IMG/VR virus record: IMGVR_UViG_3300027906_000109
Span: 1-27,987 of that record
Reading direction: 5' to 3' (one strand)
From: a virus
Length of the DNA stretch: 27,987 nucleotides
In this document: piece after piece, positions 4,853-9,568 of the stretch
Layout of the letters: the number at the start of each line of letters is the position of its first letter
How positions within the stretch are numbered: the first letter of the stretch is position 1
The notes under the pieces: model-generated
What the model saw: the letters and a program-made list of their open reading frames with translations, nothing else
Database searches by the model: none
What the model was told of the DNA's origin: nothing
Translations under genes and position numbers: made by a program

Positions 4853-4856
4853 GCGT

Positions 4857-4942
4857 GGTGACGCCGGGAGTGTCGGTTTGCTCGCCGGGAGTGTCGCTTG
4901 GTGACGCCGGGAGTGTAGCTTGGTGACGCCGGGAGTGTCGCA
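4857..4942. repeat. four tandem 22-bp repeats
   Basis: The core CGCCGGGAGTGT occurs exactly at 4862-4873, 4883-4894, 4905-4916 and 4927-4938, spaced 21, 22 and 22 bases. Most copies are flanked by TTGGTGA before and CG after. The period is about two helical turns, so bound proteins would line up on one DNA face. Confidence 0.9.
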
Positions 4943-4953
4943 TTGGTTTTGGC

Positions 4954-5066: not shown

Positions 5067-5675
5067 TTAGCCTACGCAATCCCGCAGCGGGTAGCCTGTG
5101 GCGCGGTAGGTGGGATTCTTGCGGTAGCGCCATGCCTTTCTCCATTCTCTCGGGATACCGTCGGGGCGAGCTGCGCCGATTGAATCGATACCAGAGAACC
5201 CGGTGAATTCCGGTTCAAGGTGCGCGTCAGGGTCTTCCTTGTCTGTCTCATGTGCGAGATGATTGGGAAGGTGGCGCTCACTTGTCACGGTGTGAACGTC
5301 GTGCTCCCAATCGAGGAGGGCGCGAAGCCTTTCCTGCGCGGTTGCTTGTTCTTCCTGTGAAATGTGGGTGTCTCCGTATTCCTCGAGATTGTCTAGGCTG
5401 ACAACCTCCGCCCCTAGGCTTTGAGCTAGGGTCTGGAATTCGGTTCCCATATCATCAAGTTGTATGGTGTTATCTTTGCTCGCGCTGTCGGGGGTGCATT
5501 GCTCCCAGTGCTCGAGAAGGTCTCCCGGTGTCATGCGAAGCTTGCGAGTTCGCACGGCTTTCATAGCTTGAGAGAATAGGCGCTTGTTGAGCTGTGCTCT
5601 GCGCTTTGAGAATCTGCTCTCGTCTGCCCTACGATTGATTAGGGAAGATTGGAATTGTGTGGGTGCGTGTCTCAT
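5067..5675 (-). CDS. early hypothetical protein, 202 aa
   Basis: Unrecognised protein. The N-terminal 50 residues are strongly basic (Arg/Lys-rich: RRADESRFSKRRAQLNKR), the middle is acidic (Asp/Glu-rich around residues 75-165), and the C-terminus is again basic and aromatic (EWRKAWRYRKNP). No transmembrane segment. The ATG overlaps the stop of the preceding gene (ATGA at 5672-5675), so the two are translationally coupled. By position it is one of the first expressed early genes, a class that in T7 relatives is devoted to host takeover; that role is inference only. Confidence 0.82.
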   Translation of the reverse strand: MRHAPTQFQSSLINRRADESRFSKRRAQLNKRLFSQAMKAVRTRKLRMTPGDLLEHWEQCTPDSASKDNTIQLDDMGTEFQTLAQSLGAEVVSLDNLEEYGDTHISQEEQATAQERLRALLDWEHDVHTVTSERHLPNHLAHETDKEDPDAHLEPEFTGFSGIDSIGAARPDGIPREWRKAWRYRKNPTYRATGYPLRDCVG

Positions 5676-5971
5676 TGTGCGGCGGGCTTTGGCTTCATTG
5701 GATTGAAAAAGCAGCGCGTTTCTTTGCGGCCGTGCTCGTTTTCCGTGGTCCTGAATTCGTAGTGGAAACGCACGGTGTCACCGATGGACAGTCCAGAAAG
5801 GAATGGGTTGGGCTTGGTTTCATCGTCCCAGATTTTCGCGATTTGTTCGTCTCCGTATTCTGCCTTGTAAAGAGAAGCCGGTCCGGTTGAGGTGTTGATA
5901 TTTGTGGTCACGTTGAAGATGACACCCGAGGTGATTCCCTCGGCCGGTTGTGTTGCTGCTTGTGTTTGCAT
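5672..5971 (-). CDS. early hypothetical protein, 99 aa
   Basis: Unrecognised soluble protein starting MQTQAATQPAEGITSG. The order of beta-rich segments (VIFNVTTNINTST, GDTVRFHYEF) suggests a small beta-fold, with phrasing reminiscent of OB-fold-like proteins, but no family is assigned. First gene after the genome-end region and the pair of promoter-like motifs at 6107-6115 and 6278-6286. No Shine-Dalgarno sequence before the ATG. Confidence 0.8.
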   Translation of the reverse strand: MQTQAATQPAEGITSGVIFNVTTNINTSTGPASLYKAEYGDEQIAKIWDDETKPNPFLSGLSIGDTVRFHYEFRTTENEHGRKETRCFFNPMKPKPAAQ

Positions 5972-6106: not shown

Positions 6107-6115
6107 ATGATAGTA
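6107..6115 (-). promoter_or_regulatory. candidate promoter motif TACTATCAT, copy 4
   Basis: Exact nonamer on the coding strand, 136 bases upstream of the first early gene (ATG at 5971). Same orientation as all other copies. Confidence 0.55.
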
Positions 6116-6128
6116 GATTTTTCACAAA

Positions 6129-6147
6129 GCTAGCGCGTAGTGCTAGC
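6129..6147. other. GCTAGC hairpin
   Basis: Two GCTAGC copies separated by seven bases; each is itself a palindrome, so the pair is both a direct and an inverted repeat and can form a 6-bp stem-loop. Confidence 0.45.
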
Positions 6148-6155
6148 GACTGAAA

Positions 6156-6258
6156 AAGATACAAGCCGCAAGCTACCGAACGGAGCTGCTCAAGAAAAAA
6201 ATAAGCGAAGCGTTTTCTTGAACAGTGAGAGTGAGGTAGCTCGCGATGGCTATATCTT
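6156..6258 (-). ncRNA. candidate structured RNA between two promoter-like motifs
   Basis: Nested complementary segments: AAGATA (6156-6161) with TATCTT (6253-6258), AGCC (6164-6167) with GGCT (6248-6251), GCTACC (6172-6177) with GGTAGC (6235-6240), and an inner 9-bp stem TCAAGAAAA (6190-6198) with TTTTCTTGA (6213-6221). Together they fold into one long arm capped by a hairpin. It begins about 20 bases after the motif at 6278-6286 and ends before the next motif, and on the minus strand the structure closes into a T run. The strand is inferred from the promoter orientation. Confidence 0.45.
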
Positions 6259-6433: not shown

Positions 6434-6526
6434 TTGGTGCACCAAAAAACGCCAACAAATCCAAAGACGCCCAAAGGCTCACCCGGGGCAGCCCAGCGCA
6501 CCAAGCGCTGACCAGCAGCGGAACAG

Positions 6527-6660
6527 CAAGTGCTTGCCACTTGTGCATTCCCTGCGTTCGCTAGGTGAGCGCTCTGCGCGTCCCAGCAGTGGGAGAACAA
6601 AGGCTTGCCCTTTGTGAGCCCCTGCGCCAGTCGGGGGACGAGCATAGGCTTGCCCTATGC
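6527..6660. repeat. three hairpins with identical CTTGC loop and different stems
   Basis: Stem-loops at 6527-6543 (CAAGTG/CACTTG), 6597-6615 (ACAAAGG/CCTTTGT) and 6642-6660 (GCATAGG/CCTATGC) all carry the five-base loop CTTGC (GCAAG on the other strand). Stem sequences differ but remain fully complementary, as expected for selection on structure. Smaller hairpins such as CCCA/TGGG lie between them. Confidence 0.8.
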
Positions 6661-6667
6661 GAGGAGC

Positions 6668-6687
6668 GGGGGTGCACGGGGGTGCAC
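6668..6687. repeat. 10-bp tandem duplication
   Basis: GGGGGTGCAC occurs twice head to tail without a spacer, 28 bases from the end of the 55-aa gene. Confidence 0.85.
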
Positions 6688-6714
6688 GGAGCGACACGCT
6701 ATAGCGTTACCACC

Positions 6715-6882
6715 TCAGATTTTCTTATTAAAACAAAGGGCCTTTAGTTCCCCAAGTATCCCCAGAGCTGTCTCATTGCCCTCAAGGTGCGCTCTAAGCT
6801 CCTCTAGATGGCTTTTAATCAATGCTAAGCGGCTTATGCGCTGTATGTGCACCCAGTGTTTAGAAACATCAATGATTCTCAT
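6715..6882 (-). CDS. hypothetical protein, 55 aa
   Basis: Small basic, probably all-helical protein (MRIIDVSKHWVHIQRISRLA..., then heptad-like LIKSHLEELRAHLEG). Its ATG overlaps the stop of the preceding gene as ATGA (6879-6882), and its TGA is the last codon before the long non-coding region. No family recognised. In T7 the equivalent place holds the small gp19.2-19.5 genes. Confidence 0.72.
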   Translation of the reverse strand: MRIIDVSKHWVHIQRISRLALIKSHLEELRAHLEGNETALGILGELKALCFNKKI

Positions 6883-7906: not shown

Positions 7907-9568
7907 TTACATCCAAGTAGAGTTAGCCCCCTTGGCTCCCATATAGGTTTCCGCAAAGCGTTGTAGCTCAGCGTCTATTCTGTCTGTCTTGCGCTCCCTG
8001 ATGCGCTTGTCGGCGTCCTGAGCCATCTGTTCGGTCCAGTAGGCCACGGCCATGCTCAGGGCATCTAGGCGGTCATCGTGGGTTATTGCCCCTCGTTGGC
8101 TTGTCAGCCGAGACATCTGGTAGACCAACTGGTATTTAAGCTGGGACTCTAGCGGGTATTTCTGTGCGCTTTCATAGTCATGTTGTATGACTTTCGGGTC
8201 AACTACCAGCCGGTGTTGGTTCATCACAGGCTCTAGGGTGTCGATTATCCGTCTTTCTTTTTGGATGTTGTGTCTGACTTCCTCGACGGTGCACGGGTGA
8301 ATCTTGGTGAGCACTGGCTTGAACAACTCGACAAACATACCGTCTCCGAAGTTGCTCTCGACCACAATGGCATTCACCTTGTTCTTTTTGGCCTTAATGC
8401 TCAGAGCTTTGAGGACTTCATCGCTGTATCCCCCTTGTATTCCTCCGGCATCAACAACAAACAGATACCCATTCAGCATCTTGATGATGGCGTATCCGGT
8501 CTCATCCTTACCCCGCCCAGAGGGGTCAATGGACATCACACAGCCGGTATACGGGATATATTCCCCTATGGTTTCCATGGGGCGATAGAAACGGTCCCCA
8601 GATAGCCCCACATTGGGCACAGACGAGTCCCACTCCAGTTTAGGGTCTCTGGCCCACACAAGCTTCTCCGGGGCCACCTCGGGGTCCACAGACATCACTA
8701 TGAGGTCGCTGGTCTTCAGAGGGAACCTGTCGATGTCACTCAGGCGGGTATCCAGCATAAACTGCATGGAGAACCCGGTGCGCCCGTAGGAGGCCTCTCG
8801 TTCCGCTAGGTCGATGTCAGAGAACCTCAAAGGCTCTGTAGATGACCCCTCGGCCTCGTCATCGACGCATATGTGGCTCACAGCGCCGTCATAGTTAGCG
8901 TCATTGGTCTTATTGGTGACGTATTTAGCTGGCCAGATGCGCTTCCGGTATCCCCTCTCGGTGAGCTTATTGTAGATGGTGTCCTCGCACTGTGGTGTTC
9001 CAAGGAACAATATCTTGGACGTAGCATCTGGCTTGATGATGGCGTCGAACTCCTTGACCTGCTCGCCAAGCTTATCGCGCATCCCTTGGGTGGCGCTATT
9101 TCCCACCACCTCGATGTCATCAGCAACGATAATGTCCGCCCGGGAACCCGTCAGTTGCGATGTGACCCCCAAGGATTTGACGGAGGGGGCATGGGAGGCT
9201 GGCGCGGGTCCGACATCAAAGCTGATTTTAGAGAATCGTTGCTTATCAGATGGTCGCAGATGAGCGAGAATAGGTAACTCATGGATGAGTCTAAGTGTAA
9301 AAGTGCTGAAATCGTCTGCTCTTGTTTTTGACGCAGAGACGACAAGGATATTTCGTCGTGGGTCGAGGAGGAGCTGGTGGACAACGAATGCAGAGCAAAT
9401 CCAACTTTTACCGACTCCCCTAAAGCCTTCGATAATAGCTCGTCTATCTCCTCTTTGCATGTAATCAGCGATTTCATATTGGATTGGGGTGGGGTCAGGG
9501 AGGTTCAGCTCCTTCCATACAATGTATAGAAAGTTACGGAAGTCTTTAAGCTTTTCAGGAACCTCCAT
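7907..9568 (-). CDS. terminase large subunit (T7 gp19-like)
   Basis: DNA-packaging ATPase and nuclease, 553 aa (T7 gp19: 586). Walker A GFRGVGKS at residues 48-55, Walker B IIVADD at 146-151, and the RNase H-like nuclease domain with SIDPSGRGKDETG (Asp348), VVESNFGDG (Glu404) and the C-terminal HDDRLDALSMA (Asp498/499, Asp502). Starts at ATG 9568, four bases after the HNH gene stop; no Shine-Dalgarno sequence. Works with the small subunit at 9790-10014 and docks on the portal. Confidence 0.97.
   Translation of the reverse strand: MEVPEKLKDFRNFLYIVWKELNLPDPTPIQYEIADYMQRGDRRAIIEGFRGVGKSWICSAFVVHQLLLDPRRNILVVSASKTRADDFSTFTLRLIHELPILAHLRPSDKQRFSKISFDVGPAPASHAPSVKSLGVTSQLTGSRADIIVADDIEVVGNSATQGMRDKLGEQVKEFDAIIKPDATSKILFLGTPQCEDTIYNKLTERGYRKRIWPAKYVTNKTNDANYDGAVSHICVDDEAEGSSTEPLRFSDIDLAEREASYGRTGFSMQFMLDTRLSDIDRFPLKTSDLIVMSVDPEVAPEKLVWARDPKLEWDSSVPNVGLSGDRFYRPMETIGEYIPYTGCVMSIDPSGRGKDETGYAIIKMLNGYLFVVDAGGIQGGYSDEVLKALSIKAKKNKVNAIVVESNFGDGMFVELFKPVLTKIHPCTVEEVRHNIQKERRIIDTLEPVMNQHRLVVDPKVIQHDYESAQKYPLESQLKYQLVYQMSRLTSQRGAITHDDRLDALSMAVAYWTEQMAQDADKRIRERKTDRIDAELQRFAETYMGAKGANSTWM

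Follow-up and report, generated by a model that had tools for sequence, protein, structure and literature searches.

The DNA analysed here, referred to as the window, is a stretch of 27,987 nucleotides from an IMG/VR record (IMGVR_UViG_3300027906_000109) and represents part of the genome of a T7-like marine phage. The named phage that matches it best is Ayaqvirus S45C18, with 71% terminase identity; a search for DNA-similarity relatives among named phages gave no match. The genes of the minus strand follow the order scaffold, capsid, terminase (7907-9568), small genes, an untranslated stretch, early genes and an ORF (1-1887) that reads as an RNA polymerase, judging from its translation and from the gene order annotated for AP013544 and CRP-171. 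The untranslated stretch, which separates the terminase and late genes from the early genes and the T7-like RNA polymerase, contains three hairpins. The untranslated placement at the end of the late genes, proposed in a preliminary description of this DNA, is borne out, and the hairpins fall inside a predicted direct terminal repeat (DTR; Table 1).

Several other features surround this stretch. The first early protein (99 aa; 5672-5971, minus strand) had no IMG/VR relative in a peptide-pattern search. The gene strand of the window has nine occurrences of an ACTATCA-type motif and the other strand has none; the motif is likely the core of the phage RNA polymerase promoter, and many relatives also have it just past the pause-like site. 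At 4856-4947, between early genes, a 22-bp unit, TGGTGACGCCGGGAGTGTCGCT, is present as four tandem copies.

Table 1. Coordinates of the hairpins, repeat boundaries and promoter-like motifs in the window.
Feature	Position	Strand	Place in DTR	Remarks
Hairpin A, GCATAGG-GCAAG-CCTATGC	6642-6660	(-)	+48 to +66	GCATAGG-CTTGC-CCTATGC on + strand; 7 perfect bp
Hairpin B, ACAAAGG-GCAAG-CCTTTGT	6597-6615	(-)	+93 to +111	ACAAAGG-CTTGC-CCTTTGT on + strand; 7 perfect bp
Hairpin C, CAAGTG-GCAAG-CACTTG	6527-6543	(-)	+165 to +181	CAAGTG-CTTGC-CACTTG on + strand; 6 perfect bp
Predicted DTR, holding all three hairpins	6461-6707	(-)		Left boundary base-exact from alignment; right boundary approximate
Predicted terminase left-cut flank, AAGAAAATCTGAGGTGGTA	6708-6726	(-)		By alignment; predicted cut between 6708 and 6707
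Palindrome ACGC-TATA-GCGT	6696-6707	(-)	Predicted start	
Poly-C	6678-6682	(-)	+26	
Concatemer-junction-like ATTTGTT-GGCG-TTTTTT	6444-6460	(-)		
ACTATCA-type motifs	24318, 6286, 6115, 5054, 4852, 3575, 2958, 2479, 2004	minus		

Predicted terminal repeat and its boundaries

The ends of the genome were predicted by alignment with the DTRs of seven T7-like phages whose ends are annotated (T7, T3, phiYeO3-12, K11, BA14, gh-1 and K1F). A flank of the AAA-TCTGA type stands directly before the cut in all seven, and the window flank aligns with AAAAATCTGARTGGGTA, which directly precedes the DTR in T3, BA14 and others. The poly-C run is located at +26 in the window, T7, T3, phiYeO3-12, K11 and BA14, and at +27 in gh-1 and K1F. 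The window has both the flank and the poly-C run at +26, therefore the predicted repeat start is base 6707, and the window reads AAGAAAATCTGAGGTGGTA up to the predicted cut and ACGCTATAGCGTG beyond it. Most of the relatives examined carry the same pre-cut flank, with the poly-C run at +23 to +26. The palindrome at the start of the predicted DTR has the form RCGY-N4-RCGY (N3 in two cases) and covaries across relatives, with arms that read ACGC/GCGT, GCGC/GCGC, ACGT/ACGT or GCGT/ACGC; it is broken in L080.

Approximately 250 bases into the repeat, a TGGCG/AGRCG-TTTTTT core is conserved in relatives, while the ATTTGTT heptamer is not. In the window this heptamer is one mismatch away from ATCTGTT, the class II pause sequence at concatemer junctions (PMC11617373), which is found directly after the DTR in T7. 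The untranslated stretch is the expected site of a T7-like terminal repeat once an assembler has joined the genome ends, and terminal repeats in the middle of a contig have been described (PMC10438801). From these alignments, the hairpin array very probably lies inside the terminal repeat of the genome. A further hairpin-scoring element, GTGCAC-CCCC-GTGCAC at DTR +21 to +36, was rejected; it is instead a sequence duplicated in tandem, and L038 has not kept it.

Hairpins with a shared loop and paired stems

The preliminary description reported three hairpins with the same loop and different, perfectly paired stems, and our analysis reproduces them to the base. The common loop is 5 nt long (CTTGC on the plus strand, GCAAG on the gene strand), and the stems of any two copies differ in 2-3 pairs. 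The hairpins were recovered as a single 24-nt direct-repeat family (identity 67-100%, spacing 71 and 45). They are diverged duplicates of one module, that is, paralogues and not three independent inventions, and one relative, L038, carries two of the three. A consistent second hairpin per unit was considered and dropped, being inconsistent between copies.

The window contains 85 GCAAG words on both strands; the three in the hairpin loops are flanked by 6, 7 and 7 pairs, and the rest by 0-2. Neither two same-loop 6-bp hairpins at most 150 nt apart nor three such hairpins anywhere appeared in first-order Markov simulations of the window (0/300 in each case). Across the window and its relatives (765 kb), 8 pairs of hairpins with a shared loop and different stems were observed, compared with 0, 0 and 0 in three simulated sets of 765 kb. 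A chance origin of the hairpins is ruled out by these simulations.

Covariation was counted over five copies, three from the window and two from L038. In this set 94% of the cells are paired, 4 of the 7 stem pairs are changed on both sides, and there are no wobble or one-sided standard changes; the two broken cells both affect the outermost pair, and both are A.C on the gene strand. Hairpin A of L038, GCATATG-GCAAG-CATATGC, differs by a G-C to T-A change, a compensated double transversion that is unlikely to have arisen by chance. The GCAAG loop is unchanged and never inverted in the five copies. Among the three window copies, the varying columns amount to 0/5 in the loop, 8/14 in the stem and 17/26 in the flank (P ~0.013, post hoc).

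The preliminary description concluded that selection had kept structure and loop but not stem sequence. The internal covariation behind this conclusion is real, and L038 adds an orthologous compensated change; selection is not the sole explanation, in that correction of the arms by template switching gives the same pattern (PMC8794818). The compensated change in L038 fits selection on structure and template switching alike, because both predict it. Relatives with stems broken without compensation, which the same description regarded as counter-evidence, were encountered only in a mild form: hairpin B of L038 has an A.C outermost pair with the inner six intact, and hairpin C is absent, as is the whole 61-nt block that contains it.

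Other hairpins with shared loops or covarying stems were observed in the window and its relatives. On the minus strand at 6108-6157, a hairpin TTTTTCA..GCTAGC-ACTACGC-GCTAGC..TGAAAAA is followed by the promoter-like TACTATCATTC; its counterpart in L007 carries compensated T-A to C-G changes in both parts of the stem (TTTTCCA/TGGAAAA and GCCAG/CTGGC), which makes it a stronger case of covariation between orthologs than the GCAAG hairpins. A second family of hairpins with a shared loop, TGCAGTAGC, and different stems is located downstream of the pause-like site and the predicted repeat in L013 (5192, 5752) and L015 (11089, 11655); it is possible that a GCTACTG near the L015 hairpin pairs with the loop as a pseudoknot. 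The presence of this family suggests that shared-loop modules arise repeatedly around these genome ends. Also downstream of the pause-like site, L010 and L011 have orthologous hairpins (GAAAAATCCAC/GTGGATTTTTC versus GAAAAAAAATG/CATTTTTTTTC) with a near-identical loop. A pair of hairpins sharing the loop GAAATTT is found far downstream of the terminase in two more distant relatives, L070 (9590, 9669) and L071 (14509, 14588).

Distribution of the hairpins among relatives

A search for stem-CTTGC-stem elements, as advised in the preliminary description, was carried out in the window, its relatives and IMG/VR, and with paired stems it returned the three hairpins of the window and those of L038 only. 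In the IMG/VR scan for a degenerate hairpin unit, at least 6 paired stem positions were found only in L038, and the 17 other pattern matches had 3-5 of 7 stem positions paired. Patterns built on a fixed conserved stretch or on the pause site gave no new carriers in IMG/VR. Among the other relatives with conserved boundary signals, L038 apart, no GCAAG hairpins were found.

L002, L003 and L004 have no GCAAG hairpins, although their identity to the window is 95-98% until 12-41 bases beyond the predicted cut. For L003, identity is 97.9% from 9600 to 6695, a point 12 nt within the DTR, after which the sequences are unrelated until 4853; homology is lost at 6695 in L004 and at 6666 in L002. The near-identical phages lose homology within 6666-6707, and 4853 marks the other edge in L003. 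The repeat is common to L038 and the window, but the last late gene of L038 has diverged. The repeat kept in L038 and the breaks in L002, L003 and L004 therefore place exchange points at the terminase cut, on both sides, as if the genomes exchanged left arms there. The DTR interior is hypervariable, and both the location of the hairpin module and its restriction to the lineage of the window and L038 are well supported.

Possible roles of the hairpin array and comparison with known systems

The reading that we prefer, with evenly divided confidence, is that the hairpins are diverged copies of a module in the hypervariable DTR interior of the window/L038 lineage and that they modulate end processing or end stability. 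It draws on a small sample of two genomes and on the predicted ends of this phage, and the molecular role of the hairpins is one that we infer. The module is bounded by the conserved terminase cut, predicted at 6707, and by the concatemer-junction-like pause site (~6460). The hairpins would fold upon exposure of one strand, most likely as DNA, either when the genome is replicated and the terminal repeat copied or during end processing. Their arms would stay matched through copying of one-arm mutations to the other arm by template switching, through selection against mismatched stems, or both, and the loop would be held constant by a putative binding partner. The hairpins could then modulate the processing or the stability of the end, with the cut signal itself lying elsewhere.

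It is possible, if rather unlikely, that the array consists of neutral repeats, in which a duplicated hairpin in a freely varying region has complementary arms only through template switching. This mechanism can create and maintain perfect stems (PMC8794818), and the double transversion in hairpin A of L038 has no wobble path. Additionally, the stems of L010 and L011 were replaced wholesale around a near-identical loop, and the module is missing from near-identical phages; its restriction to one lineage argues mildly for neutrality. However, template switching can invert loops, while the five copies here share one invariant loop, inverted in none of them, with the P value given above, which argues mildly for selection. 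Even less probable is a core signal, read three times, for recognition or cleavage by the terminase. The hairpins do lie inside the predicted repeat and between two conserved end signals, but L002, L003, L004 and all the other relatives keep the boundary signals without the hairpins. The proposal of the preliminary description that they could serve as a terminase or end-processing signal is not supported on this point: the hairpins are not a general terminase signal, because relatives with the same cut boundary lack them.

We consider it unlikely that the hairpins form an untranslated RNA element in the 3' part of late transcripts, where they would act as RNase or exonuclease barriers or as a repeated protein-binding site. 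All genes, as well as the nine promoter-like ACTATCA motifs, are directed through the region on the gene strand. In LUZ100, two terminators have been annotated at and within the right terminal repeat (ONT-cappable-seq). On the other hand, wobbles are missing among the stem pairs that changed, the two broken cells read A.C on the gene strand, and a 200-nt segment of the window has a fold z of -2.2 in the sense and -2.9 in the antisense direction. Fold energy on both strands gave no clear strand preference, as expected of perfect Watson-Crick stems, and neither RNA nor DNA is favored by the mismatch types, of which there are few cases, or by strand-specific folding. Rfam covariance models, including GOLLD, ROOL and OLE, had no match. 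An intrinsic terminator is rejected, as the three stems are followed by TCGTCC, TCTCCC and CTGTTCC and none by a U-run. We also rejected a CRISPR repeat or RNA anti-CRISPR (solitary repeat), since stem sequence is not conserved between copies, as well as a coding function, the overlapping ORFs being judged spurious and the 61-nt block being missing in L038. No tRNA was found.

A bolder conjecture, which we regard as improbable, is that hairpin arrays of this kind, in the genome-end repeats of these marine T7-like phages, evolve fast and are lineage-specific, that a matching phage factor recognizes the loop and thereby tells the ends of co-infecting phages apart, and that each array and the left arm are exchanged together, as one block, at the terminase cut. 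If this were true, the TGCAGTAGC loop family of L013 and L015 would be another, independent instance. The way in which T7-like phages duplicate their terminal repeat and cut it is incompletely understood, and near-identical phages that are shared up to the cut and have a swapped repeat interior, with covarying hairpins in one lineage, offer a direct test of the importance of DNA structure there. Base-level prediction of genome ends is now possible for metagenomic T7-like phages.

Phage T4 provides a known case of a genome in which several intergenic hairpins share their loop but differ in their stems; these CUUCGG hairpins are scattered in transcripts and have an ultra-stable tetraloop. Unlike these, the hairpins of the window have a 5-nt loop (GCAAG/CTTGC), and the three copies occur within 134 bases of a genome-end repeat. 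The double-hairpin and repetitive hairpin elements of mitochondrial genomes (e.g. PMC2800124) are likewise duplicating modules in hypervariable untranslated DNA; compared with them, the module in the window bears no sign of movement to other sites, and the second hairpin of its units is inconsistent between copies. Hairpins maintained by template switching (PMC8794818) show similarly compensated, partly double-transversion changes with perfect Watson-Crick pairing; they represent a mutational mechanism and not a genetic element, and from two genomes that mechanism is a candidate one for the window.

The DTRs of T7-like Autographiviridae (T7, T3, gh-1, K11, K1F and BA14) occupy the same site and have the same type of pre-cut flank and the poly-C run at +26/27; they are 160-232 bp long, compared with ~247 predicted here. 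Unlike in the window, no tandem family with a shared loop and different stems was seen in these six DTRs, and in those of K11, gh-1 and K1F perfect stems of at least 5 bp with a loop of 3-9 are lacking. The DTR of T7 contains a hairpin GTCAACC-TTC-GGTTGAC at +66 and that of T3 a hairpin TTAACC-TTC-GGTTAA at +79, which again combine one loop with a compensated stem.
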